In this document: positions 7,411 to 26,747 of the stretch, one piece after another
Layout of the letters: each line of letters begins with the position of its first letter
Numbering within the stretch: position 1 is the stretch's first letter
Source: Chloroflexota bacterium
GTDB taxonomy: Bacteria; Chloroflexota; Dormibacteria; Dormibacterales; Dormibacteraceae
Length of the DNA: 26,747 bases
Direction of reading: 5' to 3'
Assembly: GCA_005880175.1 (NCBI GenBank)
Contig: VBJR01000093.1
Location: forward strand, 3,943 to 30,689
Position numbers and translations under genes: made by a program
Notes under the pieces: generated by a model
The model's input: only the letters and a program-made list of their open reading frames with translations
The model's database searches: none
What the model was told of the DNA's origin: nothing

Positions 7411-8315
7411 GGCTGCGTTCCTCTGAGGCGCAGGCGCTCCTCGCGCGGCGCCTGGGTCATCTGCTGCATCACGCGGTAGCCCAGCACCATCCAGAGGACC
7501 GCGAGTCCGAGCACCACCTGGCCGATGGGTGAACGGAAGGGCTGCAGCAGCTGCGAGGCGAGGAGCTGCAGCGAGACGAGGAAGACGATGGGAAGGATGG
7601 TCAGGACCAGGACCGAGGCTTCGACGCCGGCCCTCATCACCCTGGCGTCGCGCTGGAGCTGGACGCTCTCCTGCCACTCCTGTGCGATGGCCTCCAGCGC
7701 CGGGACCAGCTTGGCCCCTCGCCGCCAGTGGAGGATCAGGGCCAGCGCGAGGTCGTCGAACAGCGGCTCGGCCAGCCGGTCGCGCAGCGCCGCCACGCGG
7801 TCCGGAAGTGCGAAGCGTGTCTCGTCATCCGAAAGATCGGCGACCTCCGAGAAGATCGAGCGGGCCAGCCGGGGACCGCTCCGCGCGAGGGCCATCAGCA
7901 TCTCGGTGGCGTTGCCTCCTCGGGCCATGACCGAGGCGCCGTACCGGATGGCCTCCAGCAGCGCCTGCTGGCGCTCCAGCTGGCGGCGTCGGCGGCGATG
8001 CTCCATGGCCAGGCCGAGCAGGTGGTAGGTGGCCAGGCAGCCGACCAGGCCCAGGACGGCGACGCCGAAGGCGAGGTAGGACACGAGCCCAGCGACCACG
8101 CTGCCCCCCACCCGGAGAGCGATCCACGCCTCGGCGGGCAGCCACGGCATCCCGGCCTGCGCCAGATCCTCTCGTGCCCGCTCGACGGCCAGGACGCGTG
8201 CGGCACGCTGGGCCAGCCGGGCTCTCAGGCTGCCCCAGTCGGGCTCCACCAGCAGCAGCACGCAGATCACCGCGCCGGCCAGCCCCACCACCGCGGCAGC
8301 CACCAGGACGCTCAA
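7407..8315 (-). CDS. tadB: Tad inner-membrane platform protein TadB
   Basis: The TTG at 8315 overlaps the tadA stop by 4 nt (TTGA) and has GGGGA eight bases upstream. It gives 302 aa; a GTG 12 nt further in is the alternative. Membrane helices lie at the N-terminus and around residues 65-95. A T2SSF domain covers about 110-250 (LLEAIRYGASVMARGGNATEMLMALA; WRRGAKLVPALEAIAQEW). Two C-terminal helices follow (LVLTILPIVFLVSLQLL; VVLGLAVLWMVLG). It is the partner of TadC in the pilus base. Confidence 0.8.
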   Translation of the reverse strand: MSVLVAAAVVGLAGAVICVLLLVEPDWGSLRARLAQRAARVLAVERAREDLAQAGMPWLPAEAWIALRVGGSVVAGLVSYLAFGVAVLGLVGCLATYHLLGLAMEHRRRRRQLERQQALLEAIRYGASVMARGGNATEMLMALARSGPRLARSIFSEVADLSDDETRFALPDRVAALRDRLAEPLFDDLALALILHWRRGAKLVPALEAIAQEWQESVQLQRDARVMRAGVEASVLVLTILPIVFLVSLQLLASQLLQPFRSPIGQVVLGLAVLWMVLGYRVMQQMTQAPREERLRLRGTQP

Positions 8316-9617
8316 GCGCGGGTCCCCTTGGGCTGGAGATGGGTCAGGTCCAGACCGGCCATCTCCATCTTCTCCTGGACCTTCTCGGGGGCATGCAGGC
8401 CCCAGCGGTCGTCGACCTCCCAGTCGTCGCGCCGCACGTCGTAGTGGCAGAACTCGAATACGGCAGGCCGTCCCTCGGGGTCCTCCAGGTTCTCGTCCAC
8501 GAAGGCGACCCGCGCCATGCGGCGCACCTTGTCGCCGTCGCGGCGGAAATTGGACAGGTGGACGATCAGGTCGACGCACTGCCCCACCATCTGGCGCACC
8601 ACGCGCGGCGCGATGTTGGCCTCGCTCCTGGTCGCCAGCCCTTCCAGCCGACCAAGCGCGAGGCGGGGGTTGCTGGCATGGATCGTGGTCAGCGTGCCGT
8701 CATGCCCGGTGCCGATCGCGTCCAGCATCTCCATGGCCTCGTCGCCGCGGATCTCGCCCACCACGACTCGATCTGGACGCTGCCGCAGCGCGGCCTGCCT
8801 GAAGAGGTCGCCGAGGCTGACCTCGCCGGCGCCCTCGATGTTCGCCTCCCGGGCCTCGAAGCTGAAGGAGTCCTCGGGGCGCAGCTCGTGGAGCATGAGC
8901 TCGGTCTCCGTCTCCAGGACGCAGGTCCGCTCGCCACGGGGGATGAGCATGGCCAGTACCCGAGCCAGCGTGGTCTTGCCCACCCCGGTCCCGCCGCTGA
9001 TCATGATGTTGAGGCGGGCCAGTACCGCCGCTTCGAGCAGCGCCTCCAGGGCCGGCGGGACCGCGCCTTTCTCGACCAGCGAACGCAGGGTGAGGAACCG
9101 CCTGAGCTGCTGCTTACGGACCGTGAGCATGGATGGCTTGGAGAGCGGCGACATCACGGCGTTCAACCGGGAGCCGTCCCTGAACGTCAGCGTCACCACC
9201 GGCTGGGCTGGATCGAAGTGCTTGCCGGCCAGCTCCGCGTAGTAGCGGACGACCTCGACCAGCTCCTCCTCGGTCTTGAACTGCGGAGGCAACATCTCCC
9301 GGCGGTCCTCGAAGACGAGATGGCCGCCCTGAGTGCCGTGGATGTGGATGTCCTCCACGCCGGGGATCTTCAGCTTGCTGGCGAGCTGTCCCTCGGGACC
9401 GTGCCGCAGGTACAGGTCCTGCCGGATCTCCCAGAGCTGGACGTTCGAGAGCTTGGGAAGGGACCGATCGTACGCCGTCGCGCTGTGGTACCGGCGTGCG
9501 GCGGCCTCCGCGAACCCGTAGATGGCGCGATCGTCGGCTGGCTGAGGGCGCGTCTGCCTCGCGGATGATCTCCGCCGCCCGCGCGACCTCCTGCGGCGAT
9601 GCCTCCATCTCGTCCAC
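8312..9617 (-). CDS. tadA: Tad secretion ATPase TadA/CpaF, frameshifted near its N-terminus
   Basis: This is the hexameric VirB11/PulE-type ATPase that powers the Tad pilus. Walker A is SGGTGVGKTT and the Asp/Glu box CVLETETEL. Walker B is RVVVGEIRGDE and the His box HDGTLTTIHASNP, all well formed. The best start is the GTG at 9617, with GGAGG six bases upstream, reading MDEMEASPQEVARAAEIIREAD. That frame leaves the main one near 9545, where AGCCAGCC stands. Removing one AGCC would restore a continuous 433-aa protein reading APSADDRAIYGFAEAAARRY. A GTG at 9622 would be in the main frame, but it adds an Arg-rich, uncharacteristic leader and has its ribosome site only one base away. Either the gene is inactivated or the read is wrong. 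Confidence 0.82.
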
Positions 9618-9618
9618 G

Positions 9619-10110
9619 TCACGCCTCCGTGCCCACTCGCGCACCTTCCACCGCGGGCGCCTCAAGTCGGCTGGCGACGGCCTCGACAGCGCGACGGACG
9701 CGCAACGCCGGCCGGCCGAACCAGCTCACGAAGCGACCCTCATCACGAAGCTCGCTGCAGAACGCCTGGAGCGAGTGCGACAGCTCCAGACCCCGCCAGA
9801 ATTCGGGCTCGTACGGCACGGTGCCCAGAACCGGCAGGTCGTACTCGCGTTCGAGGAACTCGGCGACCCCCGCGAGCGAGTCGTCGGCCTCCTGGTTGAC
9901 GACCGCATGAACTTGTGCAAGCCAGGTGGCGCCGGCCGATCTCAGCTGCCGGAACCTCCGGTCGAAGGCGGCCAGACCGAGCGGGCTTGGCGTGACCACC
10001 CAGAGCAGCTGCCCGTTCGTCGCCGATGGGTACAGCTCGTCGCGAACGCGACCAAGGTCGAGCACCGCCCAGGAGTATCGAGCCGAAGCAGCGTCCAGTA
10101 GGCCGCTCAC
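9619..10110 (-). CDS. CpaE-like MinD-fold protein, C-terminal part of a split gene
   Basis: These 163 codons continue in the same frame as the piece to the right, separated from it by a TGA at 10120-10122 and three sense codons. The region holds YSWAVLDLG (Walker B strand), WVVTPSPLGLAAFDRRFRQL, VHAVVNQEAD and LPVLGTVPYEPEF. These are the successive strands of a MinD/CpaE domain, where the NQ and VPYEP positions match known CpaE proteins. A restart at the GTG at 10110 has only a weak ribosome site. The stop overlaps the region where tadA begins. CpaE/TadZ positions the pilus machine. Confidence 0.6.
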   Translation of the reverse strand: MSGLLDAASARYSWAVLDLGRVRDELYPSATNGQLLWVVTPSPLGLAAFDRRFRQLRSAGATWLAQVHAVVNQEADDSLAGVAEFLEREYDLPVLGTVPYEPEFWRGLELSHSLQAFCSELRDEGRFVSWFGRPALRVRRAVEAVASRLEAPAVEGARVGTEA

Positions 10111-10119
10111 GAAGTGATC

Positions 10120-10413
10120 TCAAACCTGCCTCGCCTGCTCCGGGTCCGCCGCCCCGGCCAGCACCGCCAGACCCTCGTGCCAGCGAACCCGCTCCTCCAG
10201 CGTGGCGGCGTTCACGGGTTCCAAACGGGCGTCGTGGGCGAGGTGGTATACGTTCGTCCTGTCGTCCAGGTCGAGCAGCGCGGCCACCTGTGCCAGCTCC
10301 GGGTTCAGGTCGATGAGCAGCACGCGGCCCTTCGCGGACAGCACGCCGGCCAGGCCGGTCGCGAGCGACGTGGCGCCCGCGGCGTGCGCGGACACCACGC
10401 CGACGATCCTCAC
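10120..10413 (-). CDS. CpaE-like MinD-fold protein, N-terminal part ending in an in-frame TGA
   Basis: The GTG at 10413 overlaps the cpaB stop (GTGA) and has GGAGG six bases upstream. It reads IVGVVSAHAAGATSLATGLAG, then GRVLLIDLNPELAQVAALLDL, the first two strands of a MinD/CpaE fold. The Walker A position has AHAAGATS without the family lysines. After 97 residues a TGA replaces one codon, and the same frame goes on for another 166. Together the halves would make about 264 aa, the right size for a CpaE without a receiver domain. CGA to TGA is the simplest change that would give this. Confidence 0.6.
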   Translation of the reverse strand: MRIVGVVSAHAAGATSLATGLAGVLSAKGRVLLIDLNPELAQVAALLDLDDRTNVYHLAHDARLEPVNAATLEERVRWHEGLAVLAGAADPEQARQV

Positions 10414-11069
10414 TGCCCGCCTCCGGCGGTCACGTCGCTCTGCACCACGCCGGGCTGCGTCTTGATCAGGACCAGGCCGCCGTGGTCGGCGTACCACTCG
10501 ATCTGAGGCGCTGCCTTGTACGGCAACCAGAGGTCCACTCCGTTGGAGCCCACGCGCAGCACCTGCACGTCCTGCATGACGACCACGTCCACGCTCCGTC
10601 CCGACTGCGTGCCCTCGACGAGGAGCGCGACGTGATCGCCCGCCTTCACGTCGCCCGGCATCCGCTTCACCGGCACGGCCGCGTCCCACATCGTGGCGCT
10701 GGTCTGCGAGACGGCGACGTTCGCGGGCACCAACGCGCCACTCGGGACATCGACGACCGCGGTCTGCCCGACGATCCGGTTGCGGTCGGTGTCCCTCGCG
10801 AGCGTCGTCAGCAGCGATGGGTCCTGGACGAACACCGACGTGACGCTCAGCTCGTCTGCCGTGATCCTCGTTCCAGGCATGATCTCCCTGTCGGCGCGCA
10901 GCACGGTCACCATTGGCTGTGGCCCGTTGCGGAAGCCGATGAGCAGAAGGGCAGCCGCGACCACGCCCAGGAACAGCAGGCCGCCAAACATCGCCGCCGC
11001 ACGCCGACGTCGTGCCGTCACTCCCCTGTGCGCGGACCGCGGACGCGCATCCACCGTGTCCACGCTCAT
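10410..11069 (-). CDS. cpaB: Tad pilus assembly protein CpaB/RcpC (SAF domain)
   Basis: 219 aa, with ATG at 11069 overlapping the upstream stop (ATGA). A basic N-terminus is followed by one membrane helix (about 27-46, MFGGLLFLGVVAAALLLIG) and an SAF/CpaB domain (about 53-115, VTVLRADREIMPGTRITADEL; DVPSGALVPANVAV). An RcpC-type C-terminal beta domain contains VKAGDHVALLVEG and VVMQDVQVLRVG. CpaB is periplasmic or extracytoplasmic and is thought to link the secretion apparatus to the cell wall or outer layers. Its place directly before cpaE and tadA is the usual Tad order. Confidence 0.75.
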   Translation of the reverse strand: MSVDTVDARPRSAHRGVTARRRRAAAMFGGLLFLGVVAAALLLIGFRNGPQPMVTVLRADREIMPGTRITADELSVTSVFVQDPSLLTTLARDTDRNRIVGQTAVVDVPSGALVPANVAVSQTSATMWDAAVPVKRMPGDVKAGDHVALLVEGTQSGRSVDVVVMQDVQVLRVGSNGVDLWLPYKAAPQIEWYADHGGLVLIKTQPGVVQSDVTAGGGQ

Positions 11070-15332: not shown

Positions 15333-15623
15333 ATGCAGCCCGTCAAAGTACCTCAGAACCTGGAGCTGCGAGACGTGCTGGCGTGGGGCCTGGGCGCGAT
15401 CGACCTGCTCTGCCTGGCCACCGCTGGCGTCGTCGGCTGGTGGCTCATCATGGCCGTCCGGGCGCCATTCGGCGTACGCGTAGCCGTCGCCAGCCCGGTG
15501 TTCGCGATCGGCCTCGCATTGGGCATGGGCAAGCTCGGCGGTCGCACGGTGCGGGACTGGGTCGTGGTTGTGGCCGGCTACGTCCAGAGACCGCGACGCC
15601 GTGTCTACGGGGACGAGCGATGA
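15333..15623 (+). CDS. PrgI/VirB3-like T4SS membrane protein
   Basis: 96 aa, beginning directly after the previous stop and ending in an ATGA overlap with virB4. VKVPQNLELRDVLAWGLGAIDLL matches the N-terminal PrgI pattern (V.VP.dl...D..awgl). It is followed by two membrane helices (about 24-42 and 49-66) and a basic tail (QRPRRRVYGDER). PrgI-type proteins take the VirB3 place next to VirB4 in monoderm conjugation systems, and this gene lies exactly there. Confidence 0.72.
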   Translation: MQPVKVPQNLELRDVLAWGLGAIDLLCLATAGVVGWWLIMAVRAPFGVRVAVASPVFAIGLALGMGKLGGRTVRDWVVVVAGYVQRPRRRVYGDER

Positions 15624-17845
15624 TCCCGCGCCGCGCTCGCGCGACATCCCAATCGTGGCTGCCGGCACGCCAGGTCGATGGCACCATCCTGGAGCTGGAC
15701 GACGGCTCTCTGCGCGCCGTCCTAGAGTGCCCGACGCTCGCCTTCGGGCTCCGCGGCGAGAACGAGCAGCGCGCGGTGATGCACGCCTGGGCCGGGCTCC
15801 TGAACTCGCTGCCTCACCCGCTGCAGTTCCTGATCCAGACCAGGAGCATGCACCCGACGGCGCTGGCCGACAGTGCGGGACAGAGCGCGACCGAGGACGG
15901 CGCCCATGCACGCCTCCGGTCGTCGTTCGCACAGCTCGCCGGCTCGATGTCGTCCTACCGGCGGGTGGTGGCCCGCCGCTTCTACGTGATCGTGCCTTGG
16001 GACCCGATCACGGTCACGCACCTGTTCAGCCGCCGGCGTGAGCAGCTCAACCGCGAGGGCGCCGTGGACATGCTGGAGCAGCGCGTGCGCTGGGTCAGCG
16101 AGTGGCTGCGGCGCATCGACCTGGAACCGATCAGGCTCGGCGGACGCCAGCTGGCCACCGCTCTCTACGAAACGCTGTGCGCCGACACCGCGCGGTCGCA
16201 GCCGCTTCCCGATGAGCGCACCTTCGCCGACCTGGCCGCGCTGGTCGCTCCCGCCGCACTGGAGGAGCGGACGGCGGAGGTGCGCCTCGGCGATCGTCGG
16301 GGTCGGACTCTGGCGGTCAGCCACTATCCCAAGCGGCTGATCCCGGGCTGGCTCGATTCCCTGCACGCCTTCGAGGGTGACCTGGACGTCGCGCTGCACC
16401 TGTTGCCGGGCAGCCGGGGCGATCCCTACCGACGGGCGGCGCTGGAGGACGCCGAGGAGCTGCAGGACAGGATCGCCAGGGGTGAGGAGCGCCTGATCGA
16501 AGCGGCTCTGTACCTGACCGTCTGGGCCGACCGCGACGAGGGCCTGGAGAGCGCCAGTCAGCGCATGGAGGCGCTGCTCGGATCGCAGCTCATCCAGTCC
16601 CGCCGGCTGCTGTTCCAGATGGAGCCGGGGCTCGTCTCCACCCTGCCTCTCGGCCTCGACCGGGTCGGTCTTCGACGCAGCCTGAGCACGAGCGCGCTGG
16701 CGGCGACCTTCCCCTTCACGGGCAACGATCTCAACCAGGACCGCGGGCTTCTGTACGGCATCAACCCCGAGGTCCGCAGCCCGATACTGCTCGATCGCTT
16801 CCGTCTGGAGAACCACAACGCGGTGGTCTTCGCGACCAGCGGCGCCGGCAAGTCCTTCTTCGTCAAGGTCGAGCTGCTGCGCGCGTTCCTGGCCGGCATC
16901 CGTGTCCACGTCATCGATCCCGAGGGCGAGTACGCGCCAATCGTCGAGGCGCTGGGCGGCTCTGTGGTCACCATGCATCCGGGCTCGCCAGTGTCCCTCG
17001 ATGCGTTCGCCGTGCCCAACGAGGTCGGCGCGCTCAGCTCCCGCATCGCCACGCTGCTGGGCCTCTTCGGGCTTCTGGCCGGGGGGGTCAGCGCCGTCCA
17101 GCGGGCGGCGGTGGAGGACGCGCTCACATACGTGTACGCGGCCCAGGGCTTCACCGACGAGGGCGACACCGAGGATCTCGTACCGCCCACCCTGCGCGAC
17201 ATCGACGCCGCGCTGGAGCGTAAGACGGAGACCACGACCGGCCGCACGCGGTCGGAGATCGAGGAGCTTCGGCTCAAGCTGAGCCGCTACGTCAGCGGGT
17301 CCGGACGCTGGCTGTTCGCGCCCTCGCCACAGCGGTTGGCGACGGGCGACGTGGCCGCCTACGTGCTGTCCGGTCTACCCGAAGAGGAGCGCGCCGCGGC
17401 AATGTTCCTGGTCCTCGACCGCGTCTGGTCGGAGCTGGGCCGGGGCGCGGCGCCGACCCTGCTCGTGGTCGACGAGGCGTGGTGGCTGATGCAGTACCCC
17501 GACACCGCACGCGCCCTGCTGCGCATCGTCAAGACCGCCCGCAAGCGCAGGACGGGCCTGACGGTGGTCACCCAGGACGTGCCCGACGTCCTGGCCAGCG
17601 ACTACGGCGAGCCCATCGTGACCAACGCCGCGGTGCAGGTGCTGATGCGCCAGGCGCCGCAGGCGATGGCGCGACTGACCAAGCTGTTCGGGCTCACCGA
17701 GACCGAGCAGGCGTGGCTGCTCAACGCCCGACCGGGCGAGGGGCTGCTGCTCGCGCGAGGCAAACGGGTGCCTTTCTTCCTGCCAGCAACCGAGGAGGAG
17801 ATGCGCATGATCAAGCACGGCGAGAGCCGAGGCGGCGGCGCATGA
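15620..17845 (+). CDS. VirB4/TraC-like conjugation ATPase
   Basis: 741 aa from the ATG at 15620 (ATGA overlap with the previous gene). The N-terminal half (about 1-370) is the VirB4/TraC pre-ATPase region. It is followed by NDLNQDRGLLYGINPEVRSPILLDRF, typical of the family. Walker A is ATSGAGKSFFVK (about 404-415) with HVIDPEGEYAPI soon after. Walker B is TLLVVDEAWWLMQ (about 613-625), followed by TGLTVVTQDVPDVL. It energises assembly and substrate transfer at the inner face of the membrane. VirB4 is the one ATPase always present in T4SS, so this gene defines the operon. Confidence 0.9.
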   Translation: MIPRRARATSQSWLPARQVDGTILELDDGSLRAVLECPTLAFGLRGENEQRAVMHAWAGLLNSLPHPLQFLIQTRSMHPTALADSAGQSATEDGAHARLRSSFAQLAGSMSSYRRVVARRFYVIVPWDPITVTHLFSRRREQLNREGAVDMLEQRVRWVSEWLRRIDLEPIRLGGRQLATALYETLCADTARSQPLPDERTFADLAALVAPAALEERTAEVRLGDRRGRTLAVSHYPKRLIPGWLDSLHAFEGDLDVALHLLPGSRGDPYRRAALEDAEELQDRIARGEERLIEAALYLTVWADRDEGLESASQRMEALLGSQLIQSRRLLFQMEPGLVSTLPLGLDRVGLRRSLSTSALAATFPFTGNDLNQDRGLLYGINPEVRSPILLDRFRLENHNAVVFATSGAGKSFFVKVELLRAFLAGIRVHVIDPEGEYAPIVEALGGSVVTMHPGSPVSLDAFAVPNEVGALSSRIATLLGLFGLLAGGVSAVQRAAVEDALTYVYAAQGFTDEGDTEDLVPPTLRDIDAALERKTETTTGRTRSEIEELRLKLSRYVSGSGRWLFAPSPQRLATGDVAAYVLSGLPEEERAAAMFLVLDRVWSELGRGAAPTLLVVDEAWWLMQYPDTARALLRIVKTARKRRTGLTVVTQDVPDVLASDYGEPIVTNAAVQVLMRQAPQAMARLTKLFGLTETEQAWLLNARPGEGLLLARGKRVPFFLPATEEEMRMIKHGESRGGGA

Positions 17846-18333
17846 AGGGCCTCAAGTACCTCATCGCCGCCGTCCTCCTGATCATCACCGCCCCGGCCGT
17901 GATCGCGGCCCCGGCGGTCGTGACGTCCACACACGTGACGTCGTCCAGGCCGCTGCCGGCGGCCATCACGCCGCTGTTCCCGTGGGTCCCGGCCGGCGGC
18001 TATCCGGACCACTTCCCCTTCGGCCAGTGCACCTGGTGGGCGGCCTACAACCGCCGCGTGACCTGGTGGGGCGACGCTGGAAACTGGCTCGCCAACGCTG
18101 CCGCGCAGGGCGTGCCGACCAGCGCCGTCCCCAGCGTGGCGGCCATCGTCGTCTACCGGCCCGGTCCCGCCTACAGCGTGTTCGGGCACGTCGCCATCGT
18201 GCTCTCGACGCAGCCCGGCAGCTACACGGTCAGCGAGATGAACTTCATCGGCGAGGGGCGCGTGGACACGCGCACCGTCACCTGGCCGGACCCCAACGTC
18301 AGCGGGTTCATCCCCCTGGAGGCGACCGGATGA
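17842..18333 (+). CDS. Secreted CHAP-domain peptidoglycan hydrolase
   Basis: 163 aa from the ATG at 17842 (ATGA overlap). It begins with a signal peptide or anchor (about 1-25, YLIAAVLLIITAPAVIAAPAV). A CHAP domain follows, with the catalytic Cys in FGQCTWWAAYN (C about 63), AVPSVAAIVVYRPG, the catalytic His in FGHVAIVLS (about 116) and VSEMNFIGEG. CHAP amidases or endopeptidases cut peptidoglycan. In conjugation operons they make room for the channel, the part VirB1 plays in diderms. The position between virB4 and virD4 is typical of monoderm elements. Confidence 0.82.
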   Translation: MKGLKYLIAAVLLIITAPAVIAAPAVVTSTHVTSSRPLPAAITPLFPWVPAGGYPDHFPFGQCTWWAAYNRRVTWWGDAGNWLANAAAQGVPTSAVPSVAAIVVYRPGPAYSVFGHVAIVLSTQPGSYTVSEMNFIGEGRVDTRTVTWPDPNVSGFIPLEATG

Positions 18334-20663
18334 CCGCCCGATCGCTGCTCTTCGTCGTCCCCGTCAGCGTCCTGTTCGCGGCCCTGGTCGCCACCGGGAG
18401 CGTGCTGCGCTGGCGCGCCCGCCGGGTGTCCGGCGTGGTGATCGAGCTGCAATCACAGGCCGGCTCGAAGCTGGACCTGGAAGCCTGGGCGCTGTTCTTC
18501 CGAAGCCTCTACGGCGTGGTCAGGCCGCACTGGAAGGAGTGGCTGATCGGACAGCCATGGATCGTCTTCGAGCTGCACGGCGCTGACTCGGTGGTGACGG
18601 CTCGGTGCTGGTTCCCTCCCGAGCTGGAGGGCATGGTCAAGACCCTGCTGGGCACCGCCGCGCCCGGTCTCCAGATCGCGTCCATCGCGCCCGAGTTGGC
18701 GCTTTCCAAGCCGGCCTCGCGGGCGCGGCTGGTGCCTTGGCGGGAGGATCTGTTCCCGCTGGGCCAGCCCAAGCCGGACGCGCTGCGGCAGGTGGTCAAC
18801 GCGCTGTCGGAGGTGCCCGACGGCATCGCCCAGGTGGTCATCAGCCCCGACACCCGCTGGCAGCGAGAGGCGACCGGCCGACTGGACGAGCTGGCCGGCA
18901 TCCCGAGGCCACAGTCGCTGCCGGTGCGCCTGCTGTCGGGTGCGGTCGGCATCGTCTTCGACCTGATCTGGTCCGGTGACGCGAAGGCGCCCCCGAAGCA
19001 GTCCGTGCGCTCGTACGCCGACGTCCAGCCGCCGCCCGACAAGGCGGGCCGGCTGGGCTATCGGACCGAGGTGCGGCTGCGTGTCAGCGCCCCCACGACG
19101 GGCCTGGCGCGCCGCTACATGCAGACCCTGGCATCGGCGTTCAGGGGACTCGACGGCGCCAACGGGCTTCGCTCCAAGCGCGTCTGGCTGGGCGGACGGT
19201 TCGACGACGCGATTAGTCAGCGCCGTCGGCCGGGCGCTGGCTCGCCCGTGTTCGTCCCCGAGGAGCTGGCCGCCATCTTCCATCTGCCCATCTGGGGCAG
19301 CGCCATGGAGGCGGCGCCCGTGCGCTTCGCGCCCGCTCAGCTGCCGTCGTCGGAGGGCAAGATCATCTGCCTCGCCGACAACGCTGACCACACGCCCGCC
19401 GTCCTCTCACCCGTGGACGGCCGCCATCAGACCCACGTCCTCGGATCGACCGGGAGCGGCAAGAGCACGCTCCTGCTCAACATGGCGCTCGACGACATCC
19501 GCGCCGGTCGCGGGGTCGGGATCATCGATCCAGAGGGTGACCTGGTGCGCGCGCTACTCGAGCGCATCCCCCGCGAGGACTGGGATCGCGTACGGCTCAT
19601 CGATCCCGCCGCCACCGATCTGCCGGTCGGCCTGAACACCCTGGAGTGCGAGGACCCGGACCTGCGCGACCTGGTGGCGGATCAGACCGTGACCATCTTC
19701 CGCAAGACCTGGGAGCGCTACTGGGGACCGCGTATGGAGGACGTGCTGCGCGCCGTGGTGCTGACCCTCCTCCACCAGCCGGACGCCACCATCTGCGAGA
19801 TCCCGCTGCTGCTCCAGCAGCCCGACGCCTGGCGTCACGTGATCGGCCGGGTGAACGATCCGATCGGTCTCGGTCCCTGGTGGCAGGAGTACCTCCAGGC
19901 GTCCCAGACGCAGCGCATGCAGATGACCGGGCCGCTGCTCTACAAGCTGCGCGCCGTCCTGCTGCGCAGCAACATCCGCAACATCCTCGGGCAGCCGCGC
20001 TCGACCATCGACCTGGCGGACACGATGGACCGCGGCGGCATCCTGCTCGTCTCGCTGGCCAAGGGCCTGTTGGGCGAGGAGACGAGCCAACTCATGGGCG
20101 CCATGCTGTTCGCCCGCATCTGGCAGACCGCGCTGGGGCGGGCCGACCGTCCGGAGGCATGGCGGCCCGACTTCACGCTCTACGCAGACGAGTTCTGGTC
20201 CTACCTGCACATGCCCCAGAACCTCGGCGACGTGCTGGTCCAGGCCCGCAAGTACCACCTCGGTCTGGTCCTCGCCAATCAGCACCTGGGCCAGCTGGGG
20301 TCGTCCATCCGCGAGGCGCTCACCGCCAACGCGCGTACGCGCGTCCTCTTCCAGACCGGCCAGGACGACGCCCAGTACCTGGCGCGGGAGTACGAGCCGC
20401 TGACCGCCTACGACCTGCGCAACCTCCAGGCCAACCAGGTCGCGGTCCGGCTCTGCGTGAACCGTCGCACACAGGTGCCGTTCACCGGGATCACGAGGCC
20501 GGCGCCTGAGAGCCTGGGCACGGACCACGCCCGAGAGCTGGTCCAGTTCGCGCTGTCGCGCTACGGACGGCCGCGGACCGCGGTGGAGGCCGACATGGAG
20601 CGACGGCTGCGCGCCAAGGGCCTCCGACCGTCCGACAACTACCACACCGGAGCGGGCGGATGA
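18330..20663 (+). CDS. VirD4/TraD-like type IV coupling protein
   Basis: 777 aa from the ATG at 18330 (ATGA overlap). One N-terminal membrane helix (about 4-24) anchors the protein. A region of about 330 residues with PrgI/VirB4-neighbour character (SLYGVVRPHWKEWLIG; VRLRVSAP) precedes the motor domain. Walker A is GSTGSGKSTLLLNMA (about 371-385), followed by GVGIIDPEGDL. Walker B is DFTLYADEFWSYL (about 613), with VLANQHLGQL downstream. The HerA/FtsK-type ATPase brings the relaxase-bound DNA strand to the channel. It is the last gene before the candidate transfer origin. Confidence 0.85.
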   Translation: MTARSLLFVVPVSVLFAALVATGSVLRWRARRVSGVVIELQSQAGSKLDLEAWALFFRSLYGVVRPHWKEWLIGQPWIVFELHGADSVVTARCWFPPELEGMVKTLLGTAAPGLQIASIAPELALSKPASRARLVPWREDLFPLGQPKPDALRQVVNALSEVPDGIAQVVISPDTRWQREATGRLDELAGIPRPQSLPVRLLSGAVGIVFDLIWSGDAKAPPKQSVRSYADVQPPPDKAGRLGYRTEVRLRVSAPTTGLARRYMQTLASAFRGLDGANGLRSKRVWLGGRFDDAISQRRRPGAGSPVFVPEELAAIFHLPIWGSAMEAAPVRFAPAQLPSSEGKIICLADNADHTPAVLSPVDGRHQTHVLGSTGSGKSTLLLNMALDDIRAGRGVGIIDPEGDLVRALLERIPREDWDRVRLIDPAATDLPVGLNTLECEDPDLRDLVADQTVTIFRKTWERYWGPRMEDVLRAVVLTLLHQPDATICEIPLLLQQPDAWRHVIGRVNDPIGLGPWWQEYLQASQTQRMQMTGPLLYKLRAVLLRSNIRNILGQPRSTIDLADTMDRGGILLVSLAKGLLGEETSQLMGAMLFARIWQTALGRADRPEAWRPDFTLYADEFWSYLHMPQNLGDVLVQARKYHLGLVLANQHLGQLGSSIREALTANARTRVLFQTGQDDAQYLAREYEPLTAYDLRNLQANQVAVRLCVNRRTQVPFTGITRPAPESLGTDHARELVQFALSRYGRPRTAVEADMERRLRAKGLRPSDNYHTGAGG

Positions 20664-20754: not shown

Positions 20755-20916
20755 ATGGAAAGGAACAAGAGACAGGTTCAAATCAGCTCCATTTTCGACC
20801 CGACCATTTCAGAGAACGAGAGGCGGCACGCCAGTCGTTCTCTGGGACCGGCCGTGCGAAGCACGGTCGGTCGGACATGGGGGGTGGGGGCCGGGGGCGG
20901 GGGGACGCTCGCGTGA
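20755..20916 (+). CDS. Small protein of unknown function overlapping the relaxase start
   Basis: 53 codons from the ATG at 20755, with GAGGGGA at good spacing. The stop overlaps the relaxase GTG start (GTGA), the same coupling seen elsewhere in the operon. The N-terminal part is charged and polar (MERNKRQVQISSIFDPTISE); the C-terminal part is Gly-rich because it reads through the G-tract. Codon use in the first 25 codons is less GC-ending than in neighbouring genes. It could be a relaxosome accessory peptide. Alternatively the frame may be an accident of an origin region. I do not recognise a family. Confidence 0.4.
   Translation: MERNKRQVQISSIFDPTISENERRHASRSLGPAVRSTVGRTWGVGAGGGGTLA
20846..20872. 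other. Stable hairpin with a GCGAAGC tip
   Basis: GACCGGCCGTGC (20846-20857) and GCACGGTCGGTC (20861-20872) pair in 11 of 12 positions, the last as G-T wobble, around the triloop GAA. The tip reads GCGAAGC, a sequence known to form an unusually stable single-stranded DNA mini-hairpin. It lies 41 bp before the relaxase start codon and is a natural candidate for a nick-site or relaxase-recognition structure. Confidence 0.55.
20879..20904 (+). other. G-quadruplex-type G tract
   Basis: Four runs of five or six G are separated by T, CC and C (20879-20884, 20886-20890, 20893-20897, 20899-20904). This fits the G4 consensus with very short loops, the most stable class. It ends 9 bp before the relaxase GTG and would sit in the 5' part of its mRNA or in the displaced DNA strand. 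Confidence 0.6.
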
Positions 20917-21831
20917 GGCCGCAGCGCGTCCTCTCCACCCATCGCACGATCTTCGTCCGCGCCACGGAGTGGCGCTCGGAGACCGGCATGCGCATTCCGG
21001 CCGAGGAGATGTCCACGCTGCTGCGCAGCCTGCGCACGCGCGACGTGTGCCTCCTGAACATGCTCGGCCAGCACCACTACCTCACCACCGACCTGCTGCA
21101 GTCCCTGTTCTTTCCCTCCCTGCGCTACACCCGGATGCGCCTTCGCTGGCTGACCGAGTCCCGACGCCTTCTCATGCGCTGGCGCCAGCTGGAGCCGCGA
21201 AACCAGGGCTGGCGCCGCCGCTACTCGCTCTTCCTGCTGGCCGAGCGCGGAGCAGTCGTGCTCGCCCGCATCACGAGGGCCGATGTTCGGTCGCTCGTCA
21301 AGCGCTCCTGGCACGCCGCCGAGTACGGACTGCAGGTGGGCCACGACCTCGACGTCAACGCCTTCTTCGTCGGACTCGCGTCGCGCAGCCGGGACCTGGC
21401 CGATCAGGGTCTCTACCACTGGGTCGGCCAGGACAGCCTTCGTCGCGAGTACCAGGACGAGGGAGCCGACCTCGCTCCGGACGGCTGGGGCCGATACCTC
21501 ACGCCGGACGGCGAGGTGCTGTTCCATCTCGAATGGGACCTGGGCACCGAGTCCTACCGGCGATTGGTCGCCAAGGCCCAGACCTACGTCAACTACGCCG
21601 ACGTGCGGCCCGGCGGTGACCTGAACCACGTCCTCTTCGTGCACCACGCATCTCGACCTGCTCCAGGAGCGGGGACACCTCGGGGCCATCTGGCTCGGGC
21701 ACAACGACAAGGGTCAACGGCTGAGGCTGCCAGAGCTGCCGGCCATCCCCAACACCGGCCGTCTGGTCAGCGACAGCATCGGCAAGCCCGGCTGGTGGGA
21801 GCGCCGCCCGGGAGCTGGGGAGGGCGCATGA
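20913..21831 (+). CDS. Replic_Relax-family relaxase-like protein, frameshifted near the C-terminus
   Basis: The GTG at 20913 overlaps the small ORF's stop. The N-terminal part, LLRSLRTRDVCLLNMLGQHHYLTTDLLQSLFF with the following helices, is the winged-helix start of the replication-relaxation (Replic_Relax) family. That family is found next to FtsK/VirD4 genes on mobile elements of high-GC monoderms. The central part contains WHAAEYGLQVGHDLDVNAFF and FHLEWDLGTESYRRL, the family core. Near 21642 the frame is lost: one extra C in GTGCACCACG. Skipping it continues as THLDLLQERGHLGAIWLGH to a stop at 21831, about 305 aa in all. Unrepaired, translation runs on to 21914 into unrelated residues and into the parB start. 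Confidence 0.7.
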
Positions 21832-21855
21832 CCTGCCTTCGCTGGCTCACGTGTG

Positions 21856-21897
21856 CGGGGGTCCGACTTCGGCCCCCGGCCTCACCCGCCAGGCGGG
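21856..21897 (+). promoter_or_regulatory. Two hairpins before the ParB-like gene
   Basis: CGGGGGTC (21856-21863) pairs with GGCCCCCG (21871-21878), one G-T wobble. CCCGCC-A-GGCGGG (21885-21897) forms a tight second stem whose right arm includes the start of the ribosome site GGGAGA (21895-21900). Folding of the second stem would hide the ribosome site of the GTG at 21907, so translation may be tuned here. Confidence 0.4.
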
Positions 21898-21906
21898 AGA
21901 TACCCC

Positions 21907-22929
21907 GTGACTGAATCGCGGCAGCTGCCCGATGGCCTGGCCCTGGTCGCCGTCGACCAGATCCAGCCCTGCCCCATCCAACCCCGCGTCAACTTCTCGG
22001 TGGACCTGATCGAGCAGCTGTCCACCTCGATGCGAGCCGGACGCCACAATCCGGTCCTCGAAGTCGAGCCCGCCCCCGGCCTGCCGGGGCGCTATCAGAT
22101 CGTGTGCGGCGAGCAGCGCTGGCGTGCGGCACGCGCCGCCGGCCTGGCCGAGATCCTGGTCCGCGTCCATCCCCCACTCCGCTACCTGGAGCGGCTGCAG
22201 AAGCAGTACGAGGAGAACCGCCTGCGCTCCGAGTTGGACCCGGTCGAGGAGGCGCACGTGCTGGTGCTTGACCACACCATGAGGTCGGTCGCGCTCGCTG
22301 AACAGCTGCTGCACGACGCGCTGGTTCCCTTCCAGGCCCTCGACGACAAGCGGCTGAGCCGGCGCGAGGACTTCGGTCAGCACCTGGCCGACCTCCAGGC
22401 CCTGCTGGTCAAGCACCGCGTCCACGTGGTGCGCTCGGCTGACGGTCGCCTGCTGCCGGGCACTCTCGCGCCCTGGCGGGAGACCGAGCAGGCCCTTGGA
22501 ATTTCGGAGTCCGTACGGAAGGCGAAGGTTGGCATCCTCCGCCTCGACGCCGACCTCCAGGACGAGGTGAGGCAGCTCCCTGCCGAGCACGCCATCCAGA
22601 TCTCGCGCCTGCCCGATCGCGAGCGCCAAGCGGAGCTGGTGACGCACGCCCGCGAGCTGACGCACGACCAGGTCCACGCCGCCGTCGATCGCCTGCGCCG
22701 CGATCCCAGCCTGGACGTGGCCGCGGCGCTCAAGCCGGCCGACGACGAGAAGCCGGCACCACTCGGCTTCGTGGGCCAGCTGTCCATGCTCGCCGACCTC
22801 GGGCGCCAACTGCGCCGGTCGCTGACCAACCTGCGCGCGCGCCTGTCCGCCTCCGAGCGGCAGGAGGTGTCCGCGATCCTGGGCGACCTGCGCCGCGCCA
22901 TCGCCGCCTTCGACGAGGAGGACGCGTGA
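21907..22929 (+). CDS. ParB/Spo0J-like DNA-binding protein
   Basis: 340 aa from the GTG at 21907, with GGGAGA six bases upstream. The ParB nuclease-like domain (about 10-120) shows the order expected: LVAVDQIQPCPIQPR, then QIVCGEQRWRAARAAGL (the GERR/GEQR box) and EENRLRSELDPVEEA. The middle (about 125-200) is longer than usual and ends in a helix-turn-helix-like ALGISESVRKAKVGILRL. A helical C-terminus with QLSMLADLGRQLRRSLTNLRARL could dimerise. ParB-like proteins on elements act in partition, plasmid maintenance or regulation. No partner parA is adjacent. The stop overlaps the next start. Confidence 0.75.
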   Translation: MTESRQLPDGLALVAVDQIQPCPIQPRVNFSVDLIEQLSTSMRAGRHNPVLEVEPAPGLPGRYQIVCGEQRWRAARAAGLAEILVRVHPPLRYLERLQKQYEENRLRSELDPVEEAHVLVLDHTMRSVALAEQLLHDALVPFQALDDKRLSRREDFGQHLADLQALLVKHRVHVVRSADGRLLPGTLAPWRETEQALGISESVRKAKVGILRLDADLQDEVRQLPAEHAIQISRLPDRERQAELVTHARELTHDQVHAAVDRLRRDPSLDVAAALKPADDEKPAPLGFVGQLSMLADLGRQLRRSLTNLRARLSASERQEVSAILGDLRRAIAAFDEEDA

Positions 22930-23936
22930 TCCCCGCCTGCCCACTCGACTGCCGCCTCTGCCCAGCCCTGAAGCAGTGCGGTGGCGGCTCCAACCTCTGC
23001 CTACTCGGCCGCTGTGACGACTGCGGCGAACGGGAGCTGCTGCGCATGGACGTGCGGCGGCGAGTCATCGACCAGCTGGGGGGCCTCGACTTCAGCTGGC
23101 CTCGTCCTGTCGAACATCACCGGCCCACGGAGCTGCCCCTCCACCTGCCGGCGCTGATCCAGGCATACGCCGACCCGGTCGACGTGCCCTGGGTTGCCCT
23201 TCACGCCGGCCGCGTGCTCGGCGTGACCGGCAGCCAGGTCACCCCCAAGCACCTCGCGCGTCCATTGCACGAGGTCTATCGCCTGGCGCCCGGCACCAGG
23301 ATCGCGCTCCAGTTCTACGTCGAGGATCGGGTGCTGGCCGGCCTGTGGGCCAACCGCCGCTTCGTGATCGACCAGCTCCGTCAGCTCGCCTTCGACCTGG
23401 TCCTGGCCCCGAACGTCTCGGTCTGGCGCGACGAGTCCCGATTCAACCAGCTGGTCGCCGAGCGTCGCGCCTTCGTCCTCTACCACGAGCTGCGGGAGGC
23501 CGGGCTGCCGGTCATCCCCGACGTGGGCTTCAGCCGCTTCGAGCCGGACGGCCGGCGCTGGGCCAGATGGATGAACGGCCAGCCGGACCTGCGGGCCGTC
23601 TCCATCTTCTGCGGCGGACAGAAGGTCCACGCCGAGCGCCGCGCCCACCGCGAGACGGTGGAGGACATCGCGCTCCTCCACCGCGCGGTGCGGCCCGACA
23701 TCGCCTTCGTCCTGGGCGGTATCCACGCCCCTGAGCGCCTTGCCGACTACCGGCGGGCAGCGCCTGGCAGGGAGCTGGCCATCTGCAACGGCATGGCCTA
23801 TGCCCTGGCCCAGCGGCGTCGCCTTCTGGCCGGTGCCGCACCTGGCGTGGCCCGCTCGGCACGCGAGTGCTTCCTCCTCAACTGCGGCCACAACGACCGG
23901 CTGTACGCCCAGGTGCTGGGCGAGGAGACGCCCTGA
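22926..23936 (+). CDS. DUF4417-like protein with a cysteine-rich N-terminus
   Basis: 336 aa; the ATG overlaps the ParB stop by 4 nt (the window reads GTGATC at this junction, with GTG as first codon). Seven Cys lie in the first 33 residues (CPLDCRLCPALKQC, then NLCLLGRCDDC), a likely zinc or Fe-S site. The region 150-230, LVLAPNVSVWRDESRFNQ followed by GLPVIPDVGFSRFEPDG and AVSIFCGGQKV, fits the DUF4417 pattern (pdFSvy..., vIP.v.W). Later VLGGIHAPERLADY and AICNGMAYALAQR complete the fold. DUF4417 proteins are found on phages and elements and have no known function. It is tightly packed with the ATP-grasp gene. Confidence 0.6.
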   Translation: MIPACPLDCRLCPALKQCGGGSNLCLLGRCDDCGERELLRMDVRRRVIDQLGGLDFSWPRPVEHHRPTELPLHLPALIQAYADPVDVPWVALHAGRVLGVTGSQVTPKHLARPLHEVYRLAPGTRIALQFYVEDRVLAGLWANRRFVIDQLRQLAFDLVLAPNVSVWRDESRFNQLVAERRAFVLYHELREAGLPVIPDVGFSRFEPDGRRWARWMNGQPDLRAVSIFCGGQKVHAERRAHRETVEDIALLHRAVRPDIAFVLGGIHAPERLADYRRAAPGRELAICNGMAYALAQRRRLLAGAAPGVARSARECFLLNCGHNDRLYAQVLGEETP

Positions 23937-25237
23937 TGCCGTCCAAGTCCGGTAACCGCGCACGTGGGAGGCAGCCGGCCGGCGCCTCGATGGGGACCAG
24001 CGCACCCCGCCGCGGCGTCGATCTCGCCACCCTCTTGCCCAACGCCCGGGACCAACAACCCCTGCGCCGCGGCGCCGAGGTCGCACGGTTCAACGACCTG
24101 GCCCGCCGCCAGGACGAGCTGCCCGAGGACGAGGCCGACGAGCTGTACCGCTACCGCCTTCGCCGCCTGCGCACACGGGCGGACCAGCTCCGCCGGGCGA
24201 TGGACGCCCAGGACGAGCAGGCCATCCGCCGGGCTGTGGCCGACTTCGACCGCCGCCTGGCCGAGCTGCAGCGGCTGGAGGAGGTCCGCGTTCGCGCCGG
24301 CCTGCCCGTCGTCAGTGATCCCGAGCTGACCCCGAGGGACGATGCCGTCGCGGCCCTGGTGGCGCTGGCGGAGGCCCGCCCTCGCGGCCTGATCACCGGC
24401 TGGGAGGGATCACCCGCGCAGCCCACCGGCAGCGTCCGGCTGCCCGAAGTTGCCTTCGCTCCCGGGACGGACGACGTGCCCATCTACGTCCTGGCCCCTC
24501 CCTCACTTTCATCCGAAAGCCTGGGCAGCCGCGTCGAGGCGGTCGCCGCCGAAGGCGCCCAGATCCGCGTCGTCCACGACCCGGCGGACATCCCTCACGA
24601 CGACGGACCGCCGCCGCTGGTCCTGAACTGGGGGGCGGCCCAGACACTGCCCGCCGACCTGGTCGCCCTCAACCACCCGAACTCGGTCCGGATCGCGTCC
24701 GACCAGGTGCATGGCGCCATCCGGCTCGGCGACCTGGCTCCCAGGAGCGTCGTCAACCCACGGGACATCCATCTCCTGGGCGGCGAGCGCATCGTGGCCA
24801 AGCGGCGTCGGGGCAGTCGCGGCAGCGGCGTGGCGGTGCTGCCCATCGATGCGCCGGCTCGCGAGCTGGCGAACTACGACCTCTACCAGGAGTACATCCC
24901 CGATCGCCAGGAGTACCGCGTCTCGGTCCTCTCCGGCCGCGTGGTCTCCGCGTACGCCCGCAACCGGCCCGAGGGCTCGGCCCCCGATGATCCCCACCCC
25001 GGCTGGCGCTACGAGCGCGCCTCGGTCCTGCCGCGATCGGTGGTGACCGCCGCCCGCGAGGCCGCGCAGCGGGTGGGACTGGACTACGCCGGGATCGACG
25101 TGGTCGAGGACCGCTCCAACGGTCGCGTCCTGTGCCTGGAGGCGAACGCCGCTCCGGGCATGTCCGAGGACACGGTGCGGAGCCTGTACGCCCACGTTCA
25201 GCAGGCCCTTCGCGGTCGGGCCACCCGAGCCAGCTAG
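23936..25237 (+). CDS. ATP-grasp carboxylate-amine ligase (RimK-like)
   Basis: 433 aa; the ATG shares a base with the previous stop (TGATG). It begins with MPSKSGNRARGR, a tag shared with the next protein. A charged helical stretch (about 45-120, possible coiled coil) follows. The ATP-grasp fold then fills the C-terminal half: VLNWGAAQTLP, ERIVAKRRRGSRGSGVAVL (the lysine and Gly-rich loop), YQEYIPDRQEYRVSVLSGRV, YAGIDVVEDRSNGRVLCLEANAAPG (metal and ATP ligands). Family members make amide bonds through an acyl-phosphate. No substrate-specific domain is recognisable. With the amidoligase next door it looks like a two-enzyme peptide- or protein-modification set. Confidence 0.78.
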   Translation: MPSKSGNRARGRQPAGASMGTSAPRRGVDLATLLPNARDQQPLRRGAEVARFNDLARRQDELPEDEADELYRYRLRRLRTRADQLRRAMDAQDEQAIRRAVADFDRRLAELQRLEEVRVRAGLPVVSDPELTPRDDAVAALVALAEARPRGLITGWEGSPAQPTGSVRLPEVAFAPGTDDVPIYVLAPPSLSSESLGSRVEAVAAEGAQIRVVHDPADIPHDDGPPPLVLNWGAAQTLPADLVALNHPNSVRIASDQVHGAIRLGDLAPRSVVNPRDIHLLGGERIVAKRRRGSRGSGVAVLPIDAPARELANYDLYQEYIPDRQEYRVSVLSGRVVSAYARNRPEGSAPDDPHPGWRYERASVLPRSVVTAAREAAQRVGLDYAGIDVVEDRSNGRVLCLEANAAPGMSEDTVRSLYAHVQQALRGRATRAS

Positions 25238-25239
25238 CC

Positions 25240-26384
25240 ATGCCGAGCAAGAGCAGGAACCGCGCAACCCGATCGACCGTGGTCGTCTCGGTGACGGCCC
25301 CTCCCGTCGATCCCGTCAGCCGGCTGGCCGACGGTCCGGTCGCCGTGGCCGAGGTCAATCCCTTCGCGGCGGTGCCCGAGGACGACCCGGTGGTCGACAC
25401 CCCGCTCTGGGCGGAGATGTACGAGCGCGCCTTCGCGCGCTATCGAGATCGACGCGATCTGACCGATCGCGAGCAGCAGGAGGCCCAGCAGCTGTGGGAG
25501 GAGTTCCTGCGCGCCCAGGGCGAGCAGGTACCCGAAGGTGAGCGCTCGCTGGTCGCCAACGACGAGCTGCACCGCCAGCTCATGGAGCTGGCCGGCACCG
25601 AAGCAGGCCGCCAGTACCAGCGGGAGAACGTGATCGGCGACCCCAACCAGACCTTCGGCATCGAGATCGAGTTCGATGGCGGCAACCCGACCGAGATCGC
25701 CAGGGCCATGTACGCCGCCGGGCTCACCTCCAGCCCCCGCCAGGAGGGCTACCACTCGGGCCATCGGCGGGCCGGCATGTGGTCGGTGGAGACGGATGTC
25801 ACGGTCAACGGCGAGGTCGTCAGCCCGGTCCTCCGCGACACGCCGGAGACCTGGGCGCAGCTGGAGCGCGTCTGCCAGATCCTCAACGATCACGGCGCCC
25901 GCGTCACCTCTCGTACCGGCGGTCACGTCCACGTGGGCGTCGATTCGTCCGGCCTGGACCACGACGTCGACCGCTTCCGCCGCGTGGCCAGGACGTGCGC
26001 CTGGGCAGAAGACCTGATGTACCGGCTGGCCGCCGGCACGGGCGCTGGGGGACGCGAACACCGCGGCGCTGGCAACGGCTACCGGTGGTGCGGGCCGATG
26101 CGCTCGGGTGACTTCGAGCACGCTTCGACTCCAGCCTCGACCCCTCACGCCTTCAGGCCAACGTCCAGCTCGCCTGCTGGCTGACCAGGCGGGCGGCCGA
26201 GCTGCCCGACTCGGCGATCCCACGTGAACGCGTGCGCCTGGGCAGCAACCGGAGTGCCGCAGATCAGCGCCGGGGCGAGCGCCAGCTGCGGCGCTTCGCC
26301 GACCTGGTCTTCGTCCGGCCCCAGGACCGGCTCAGGCTCTACTGGCTGTTCCGCCGCTCCGAGTGGCAGCCGAGGGCCGCATGA
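25240..26384 (+). CDS. Amidoligase_2-family protein (COOH-NH2 ligase), frameshifted
   Basis: It starts 2 nt after the ATP-grasp stop with MPSKSRNRATRS, the same tag with different codons. A Pro/Val-rich and then helical linker (about 20-130) precedes the glutamine-synthetase-like core: TFGIEIEFDGG (about 138-148), MWSVETDVTVNGEVVSPVL (about 180-198) and TGGHVHVGVD (about 226-235). These are the three hallmark motifs of Amidoligase_2. Near 26114 one base is missing. The other frame then continues well (RFDSSLDPSRLQANVQLACW, ending WLFRRSEWQPRAA) to 26384, about 381 aa. Without repair it stops at 26184. Amidoligases join carboxyl and amine groups at the cost of ATP. Confidence 0.75.
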
Positions 26385-26458
26385 GCGTCCTCACCATGTC
26401 CAACGGCCAGTGCCGCGACGCTGTCGCGCGCGCCCTGACCCACGAGGAGGCCGCTTGA
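26381..26458 (+). CDS. 25-aa peptide downstream of the amidoligase
   Basis: The ATG overlaps the amidoligase stop (ATGA). Twenty-five codons follow, nearly all ending in G or C like the neighbouring genes. The peptide (MSVLTMSNGQCRDA and on to HEEAA) has one Cys, several Ser/Thr, and a Glu-Glu near the C-terminus. Its end carries the ribosome site GGAGG for the next gene, so a leader or coupling peptide is one explanation. Given the ligases before it, a substrate peptide is another. Very short, so uncertain. Confidence 0.4.
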   Translation: MSVLTMSNGQCRDAVARALTHEEAA

Positions 26459-26460
26459 AG

Positions 26461-26747
26461 ATGTACCGCCTCATCCATCCCAACTCCGACCGGCAGCTGC
26501 CATTGCGGATGCTCTTCCAGCCCGCTGGCGCCGGCACCTTCCTCCGCGCCTGCGAGGCCGACAGCTGGCGCGCCCTCGTCGCCGCCATGCTCGACGACCC
26601 CGACTATGAGACTGCCAACGCCGAAGATCGGCTGGTCGAGCGCCTTCGCCTCGCCGACGACGTGAAGCTGCTGGCAGCCATCGACGATCGCCAGCTCACC
26701 GTCGCCGACCGCGACGGACCCGAGACCGTGAACATCAGCTCCGACGA
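26461..26747 (+). CDS. Unknown protein, N-terminal part (runs off the right edge)
   Basis: The ATG at 26461 has GGAGG ten bases upstream; a TTG at 26455 that overlaps the previous stop is the alternative. Ninety-five codons are visible, with GC-ending codons throughout and no stop. It is soluble and acidic (RLIHPNSDRQLPLRMLFQP; LVAAMLDDPDYETANAEDRLVERLRLADDVK), with no membrane segment and no motif I recognise. It continues the operon of the ligases. Confidence 0.6.
   Translation, partial: MYRLIHPNSDRQLPLRMLFQPAGAGTFLRACEADSWRALVAAMLDDPDYETANAEDRLVERLRLADDVKLLAAIDDRQLTVADRDGPETVNISSD

Follow-up and report, generated by a model that had tools for sequence, protein, structure and literature searches.

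The tag shared by an ATP-grasp ligase and an amidoligase

We analyzed a 26,747-nucleotide stretch of contig VBJR01000093.1 (positions 3,943 to 30,689; Chloroflexota bacterium, Dormibacteraceae), referred to below as the window. Genes of the type IV secretion system (T4SS) type are followed there by genes for a Replic_Relax protein, a ParB-like protein and a DUF4417 protein, and then by those for two enzymes, an ATP-grasp ligase and an Amidoligase_2 protein (Table 1). The DUF4417 stop codon overlaps the ligase start by one base, and two bases separate the ligase stop from the amidoligase start. By translation, the ligase begins with MPSKSGNRARGR (from 23936, plus strand) and the amidoligase with MPSKSRNRATRS (from 25240, plus strand). 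The N-terminal tag that the first-pass annotation of the window had noticed on these adjacent enzymes is real (MPSKSGNR versus MPSKSRNR), and its claim that the likeness is kept at the protein level was borne out: the window ligase spells Ser3 as TCC and the window amidoligase as AGC, and across five locus pairs the codon is TCN in 5/5 ligases versus AGC in 5/5 amidoligases.

A protein search gave 212 homologs of the ligase and 194 of the amidoligase, and tags were counted in the best 120 of each. Among these ligases the motif [MVL]P[SN]K stands at the very start in 79 and within the first 45 residues in 21 more (100 in total); among the amidoligases it stands at the start in 87. The untagged homologs listed (20 ligases and 33 amidoligases) start downstream of the tag of their closest tagged relative, that is in the linker, in 20 and 32 cases respectively, P0143 being the one not explained in this way. 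That 52 of the 53 begin inside the linker of tagged relatives suggests that most are probably start-call errors, an assignment made from the proteins rather than from their DNA, and disfavours tag loss in some homologs. The linker between tag and core is variable (42–68 residues in ligases, 44–96 in amidoligases), and residues 1–25 of the ligase are predicted to be disordered, with an AlphaFold2 predicted local distance difference test score (pLDDT) below 50 for a mean over all residues of 86. Every row of the 36-row alignments A1 and A4 has Lys4, but the rows were picked from tagged proteins, so that this is no independent measure. Eight ligase-amidoligase pairs were compared, seven of these pairings being presumed: both partners carry MPSKS in three and MPSKGG in four, and one pair is mixed.

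Four other elements bear the pair, namely the contigs L001, L027 and L025/L026 (genome G019) from dormibacterial metagenome-assembled genomes and the IMG/VR contig L003. Counting the window, both enzymes are tagged in all five pairs with readable starts, and no homologous pair lacking the tag was found among them; the start of the L003 ligase is a TTG within a longer frame. The tagged pair is preceded by ParB and DUF4417 genes in all five loci, and transfer or Replic_Relax genes are also present in four. The DUF4417 homologs of L001, L003, L026 and L027 are 65–68% identical and occupy the same place, as do ParB homologs in the four other loci and Replic_Relax in L001, L003 and L027. VirB4 and VirD4 are co-encoded in the window and in L001, where a CHAP-like hydrolase homolog (56% identical) lies between them, and VirD4 is in place in L027. 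The whole order is found from VirB4 in L001, from VirD4 in L027 and from Replic_Relax, at the contig start, in L003, a contig that ends before the place of VirD4 and VirB4. The small protein after the amidoligase recurs at the same place in L003, L025 and L027 with 59–64% identity. Within the class, a ligase match at E ≤ 1e-30 was obtained in 6 of 110 genomes, three of the six being fragments.

Six dormibacterial genomes, only three of which hold the full pair, were scanned with a DNA pattern of the tag, the reversed pattern serving as control. The pattern gave 19 matches versus 6 in the control, and the clear starts of long MPSK proteins were those of the pair genes only (four sites). The scan also returned one 246-aa MPSK open reading frame (ORF) on G201, a candidate only, and two other long frames that read MPTK or VPTK and are open upstream. 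In these six related genomes the tag is not common at unrelated protein starts. A pattern scan of five stretches covering the other VirD4/Replic_Relax or Replic_Relax loci of G001 and G002 revealed no further tagged cargo, and a tag-only search of phage records gave no match. In the open literature we found no paper for the string MPSKGG and none combining Replic_Relax with an amidoligase.

The ligase is predicted to be a RimK-like ATP-grasp ligase. The closest folds to its model in the PDB are those of RimK and the graspetide ligase PsnB (5zct and 7dro; E 2.8e-11 for 5zct, RimK), and the protein matches PHROG 2599 (annotated S6 glutaminyl transferase) at E 8e-27. It shares the ATP-grasp fold with RimK and the graspetide ligases and differs from them in having about 20% identity and an additional tag, linker and helical region. 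The domain of the amidoligase scores above the cut-off on the N-terminal piece, and the open frame is not intact in the window. Residues 1 to ~330 of a close relative, P0123, align to window 25240–26130 and residues 364–449 to 26124–26381 in a different frame (tblastn), ~34 residues of P0123 being missing near 26124–26130. Full-length relatives exist, among them P0123 (449 aa), and the break is either real or an assembly fault. P0003, a relative of the ligase, is 96% identical to the window protein, and P0123 and P0003 probably lie on one and the same contig.

Table 1. Genes and tags of the module in the window
Feature	Position	Strand	Basis and remarks
VirB4/TraC-like ATPase	15620..17845	+	P-loop_TraG and AAA_10 (from 15647); start set by eye
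CHAP-like cell-wall hydrolase	17842..18333	+	name inferred from reading the sequence
VirD4/TraG-like coupling ATPase	18330..20663	+	TrwB_AAD_bind, 22.2 bits versus 20.5; start set by eye
Replic_Relax (replication-relaxation) protein	20877..21914	+	PF13814, E 6e-22
ParB-like protein	21853..22929	+	PF02195
DUF4417 protein, 336 aa	22926..23936	+	PF14386, E 2.9e-6, slightly under the curated cut-off
RimK-like ATP-grasp ligase (predicted), 433 aa	23936..25237	+	RimK PF08443, 29.9 bits versus cut-off 21 (Pfam); tag, variable linker, helical region, ATP-grasp domain
Ligase tag MPSKSGNR	23936..23959	+	translation; motif family-wide
Amidoligase tag MPSKSRNR	25240..25263	+	translation; motif family-wide
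Amidoligase_2, N-terminal piece	25240..26130	+	PF12224, 47.8 bits versus cut-off 22 (Pfam); tblastn of P0123; in frame until the break near 26124–26130
Amidoligase, C-terminal piece	26124..26384	+	other frame, including the stop; junction short of ~34 residues present in relatives
Small conserved protein after the amidoligase	26458..26747	+	open at the window end; homologs in other loci

Tags of the same design on actinobacterial plasmids

A tblastn search of PLSDB with the DUF4417 protein of a Streptomyces plasmid as the query gave 36 records. Actinobacterial plasmids carry a similar module, with transfer genes, Replic_Relax, ParB and DUF4417, but with a different tag. On five Streptomyces plasmids (four of them read: L053, L054, L055 and L062) three amidoligases are each tagged MGSG[ST]RIDHQHH; the third of L053 is annotated from an internal start, and the tag search still counts three tag places on that plasmid. 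A Nonomuraea plasmid (L052) carries one amidoligase, whose annotated start leaves out an in-frame MGRGSRSSHVHREVAPT. On 26 Streptomyces and Kitasatospora plasmids two large unrelated proteins, h2 (868–904 aa) and h3 (743–764 aa), are found behind DUF4417, and both begin with MGT[NG]SK[ST]SH in the eight plasmids read. The h2/h3 tag search gave 26 records with 51 places, and the expected 52nd (h2 of NBC_00445) was read directly; for the 18 unread records the coordinates of the best tag place only are known. In each of the 26, DUF4417 is found upstream of the tag, and within the collections searched the tag searches matched only plasmids of this module type.

Annotated starts omit the tag at 15013 of L052 and 18354 of L053 (the amidoligases of Nonomuraea and S. 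alboflavus) and at 13534 of L065 (h3 of S. clavuligerus); the tag is hidden by annotation pipelines.

A start profile built solely from tags of the h3 family was run on 7,370 possible starts of ORFs of at least 100 aa in 18 plasmid loci. The h2 and h3 proteins rank first, with scores of 32.9 to 43.4 (h3 by construction, h2 being the test), and are followed by the Streptomyces and Nonomuraea amidoligases, from 16.2 to −1.1. The best other start, internal to h3, scores −2.9, and the mean is −38.5. With h2, h3 and the amidoligases ranked above all other starts, one tag is common to three unrelated protein families in Actinobacteria. Together with the six-genome pattern scan and the reading of ORFs, this ranking makes chance or a common start sequence unlikely.

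In each of the eight loci read, the h2 and h3 tags of the plasmid have 14 of 16 residues in common. Different codons spell 8–10 of these 14 shared residues in five loci (28–32 of 48 nt identical); six codons differ in one locus, and just one in L056 and L057, where the tag DNA of h2 and h3 is identical at 44 of 48 nt and looks recently copied. A recent DNA copy is not the rule as the general origin of shared tags, appearing only in these two loci. Tag positions 4 (N or G) and 7 (S or T) match between h2 and h3 within each of the eight plasmids. Such matched, lineage-specific changes would fit a common reader changing along with its tags; shared ancestry of the loci would produce the same correlation.

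Do the MPSK and MGxxS[KR] tags descend from one tag? With the unshifted actinobacterial profile, none of 11 MPSK tags scores above −13.2, and unrelated starts do as well. When shifts of up to 8 are allowed, scores beyond the 99% point of 7,077 controls are reached by 30% of the 79 ligases and 46% of the 87 amidoligases, and 38% of the ligases and 37% of the amidoligases beat 95% of their own shuffles, mostly at offsets 3–5; in the shifted alignments GG[SR]R mostly falls opposite GxxS[KR] of the actinobacterial tag. Since the proteins are related to each other and not independent, these scores make common descent suggestive, not decisive. When 18 proteins or pieces from the window were compared with eight plasmid loci by tblastn, only the DUF4417 protein and the amidoligase pieces matched at E ≤ 1e-3; for the rest of the module, the likeness is therefore one of Pfam domains, annotation and gene order. 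Small proteins beside the ligases (window 26458 on; L053 17579–18121) are alike by eye and gave no tblastn match.

The h3 protein is DarT-like by predicted fold only. The DarT fold was matched with VIA-align only, and Foldseek searches of the PDB and of viral models gave no trusted match, the sole viral match below 1e-3 having a TM score of 0.06. N613-E614 is invariant in the 47 rows of alignment A5 and may correspond to the catalytic Glu of DarT, in which a conserved glutamate lies near the C-terminal strands. Compared with the DNA ADP-ribosyltransferase DarT, h3 has a long, tagged, multidomain N-terminus fused to the DarT-like part. The h2 protein is weakly kinase-like: PI3K type 3 (Vps34) was matched at E 0.1–0.2, ranked under two unrelated chains at 0.03, and HipA_C was detected in two of eight family members (best E 0.12) and PI3_PI4_kinase in one (E 0.3).

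Gamma-glutamylcyclotransferase (GGACT) genes lie beside the triple amidoligases in L053, L054, L055 and L062, and a GATase_6 gene is also present in L053. Neighbourhoods of amidoligase and ATP-grasp genes were reportedly described by Iyer et al. in 2009. ATP-grasp and Amidoligase_2 genes are adjacent in our loci too, with GATase_6 and GGACT genes added in S. alboflavus; unlike in those neighbourhoods, the tag here extends to non-ligase proteins. We know of no description of a shared N-terminal tag in them. Outside the tagged module, Streptomyces plasmid proteins of 2887 and 2220 aa (L068 1204–9867; L069 5089–11751) are annotated as amidoligase and toxin glutamine deamidase proteins.

Proposed docking and possible transfer of the tagged enzymes

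A peptide that is short and conserved, sits on a tether of long and variable sequence, recurs on otherwise unrelated enzymes and is confined to one gene module in the collections searched looks like a docking or targeting signal. The suggestion of the first-pass annotation that the tag brings both enzymes to one partner is strengthened by the same arrangement, with another tag, on the unrelated proteins of actinobacterial plasmids. Three results go beyond that annotation: the tag is family-wide, the window amidoligase is broken and the design extends beyond ligases. In the reading that we place first, the first 8–17 residues would serve as an address for docking, held on a disordered tether that evolves fast, and all large enzymes whose genes follow DUF4417 in the plasmid module would bear it. 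One component of the module, either the DUF4417/ParB/Replic_Relax nucleoprotein complex or the coupling ATPase, would be the reader and would load the ATP-grasp ligase, the amidoligases and the DarT-like and kinase-like proteins for transfer. The loaded enzymes would then accompany the plasmid into the recipient, or act on the DNA and proteins while these are being transferred. In this co-transfer of modifying enzymes, to which we give a probability of about 0.35, docking is an inference but well supported, and the reader and translocation are postulated.

If true, co-transfer would make the tag a simple sequence handle for proteins carried or recruited by plasmid transfer or partition machinery in two phyla, and would give amidoligases, ATP-grasp ligases and a DarT-like protein a place in plasmid biology. 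The tag also gives a first lead on proteins annotated only as hypothetical in 26 Streptomyces and Kitasatospora plasmids.

The closest parallel is the capsid targeting sequence of phage T4, a short N-terminal peptide on otherwise unrelated proteins that travel with the DNA; in excerpts of PMC3012670, the T4 internal proteins are described as diverse and sharing only this sequence, which can encapsidate foreign proteins. T4 uses a capsid, with a prohead protease cleaving the peptide, whereas the tagged genes are mostly beside T4SS-type genes. At slightly lower odds than co-transfer as such, the tag may be a new N-terminal transfer signal with which T4SS-type plasmids of Actinobacteria and Dormibacteria mark an exchangeable kit of DNA- and protein-modifying enzymes, by one lineage-specific peptide, for entry into the recipient in the manner of the T4 internal proteins. 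Conjugative T4SSs have protein substrates, VirE2 being an example. The tagged enzymes resemble such substrates in their short common motif and, in the window, L001 and (for VirD4) L027, in their VirB4/VirD4-type co-encoding; they differ in that the motif is N-terminal on a long tether and that one tagged pair (G019) has no VirD4 match in its draft genome.

Several observations weigh against co-transfer. The known protein signals of T4SSs are mostly C-terminal. Bacteria-killing T4SS effectors carry a C-terminal consensus, as stated in excerpts of PMC8262851. In G019 (L026), no match to Replic_Relax, VirD4 or VirB4 was obtained in the 20 kb upstream of the tagged pair, and the draft genome has no VirD4 match despite the tagged pair with ParB and DUF4417; the nearest Replic_Relax on that contig is ~200 kb away. 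Since the ParB match of G019 is split over two frames, this locus has possibly decayed; even so, it speaks against a strict tie of the tag to transfer. The 20-kb stretches read at two further VirD4/Replic_Relax loci of G002 (L071 4116–7735; L072 15404–18828) gave no match to the DUF4417 protein, the ligase or the amidoligase of the window. The T4SS setting that the first-pass annotation had described holds for most tagged loci, and ParB and DUF4417 genes are present in all five dormibacterial ones; the link to VirD4 is weakened by G019 and by the two loci of G002.

Among the plasmids, the Nonomuraea one has no Replic_Relax or VirD4 gene annotated beside ParB, the h3-family tag varies except at G2, H9 and P16, and the h2/h3 plasmids read are typed non-mobilizable. 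Four of the 36 DUF4417 records (Mycolicibacterium, Euzebya, Rhizobium and Planctomyces, that of Rhizobium being unread) had no detected tag, and no common tag was found on the Euzebya h2 and h3. Plasmid pI of S. mirabilis (L067, L070) carries TcpC, an AAA_10 ATPase, wall hydrolases, Replic_Relax, DUF4417, h2 and h3; no Pfam domain was detected in its protein at the VirD4 position nor in its ParB-annotated protein. According to excerpts of PMC9195940, pI conjugated from S. mirabilis to S. lividans and no TraB homolog was found on pI, a TraB homolog and VirD4/VirB4 genes being on the S. mirabilis chromosome; the transfer of pI is therefore not tied to this module.

Docking could also take place in the donor only, which we rate as the more probable reading, if still short of even odds: the tag would tether the enzymes to a DUF4417, ParB or Replic_Relax scaffold, modified to control replication or transfer, and nothing would be translocated. 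All the tag evidence fits this equally well, as do the resemblance of the ligase to RimK and the position of DUF4417, directly before the tagged genes in 5/5 dormibacterial loci and upstream in 26/26 h2/h3 plasmids. G019, where ParB, DUF4417 and the tagged pair persist and no VirD4 was matched, fits donor docking better than transfer. However, the changeable enzyme set, ligases in one case and DarT-like and kinase-like proteins in the other, is not explained by donor docking itself and suits cargo better; co-transfer was placed first because it alone explains this changeable cargo and is the bolder of the two.

The first-pass annotation had also offered the tag as a modification site. Each ligase would then attach amino acids or peptides to its own N-terminal peptide and to those of the others, for example at Lys4. 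RimK and graspetide enzymes act on peptides, and Lys4 never varies in the alignment rows, which were picked from tagged proteins, but tags of the same design stand on the DarT-like and kinase-like proteins of plasmids whose loci, as far as read, show no ligase; no positive evidence for modification was obtained, and we consider it improbable. Least plausible of all is a nucleotide-level 5′ feature (translation start or mRNA site) or repeated DNA copying with a peptide devoid of role, for although copying seems to occur in L056 and L057, five of the eight loci keep 14/16 residues with only 28–32 of 48 nt identical, and the Ser3 codon classes differ between partners in 5/5 loci.

Pilus-like genes were noticed near two of the modules. 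In the window, Tad/Flp-pilus-like genes (TadA, TadB, TadC and CpaB-like by sequence reading) lie on the minus strand at 6475–11069, left of the T4SS genes, and the Nonomuraea plasmid carries TadE/TadG and F-family genes ~9 kb upstream of its ParB-DUF4417 genes.

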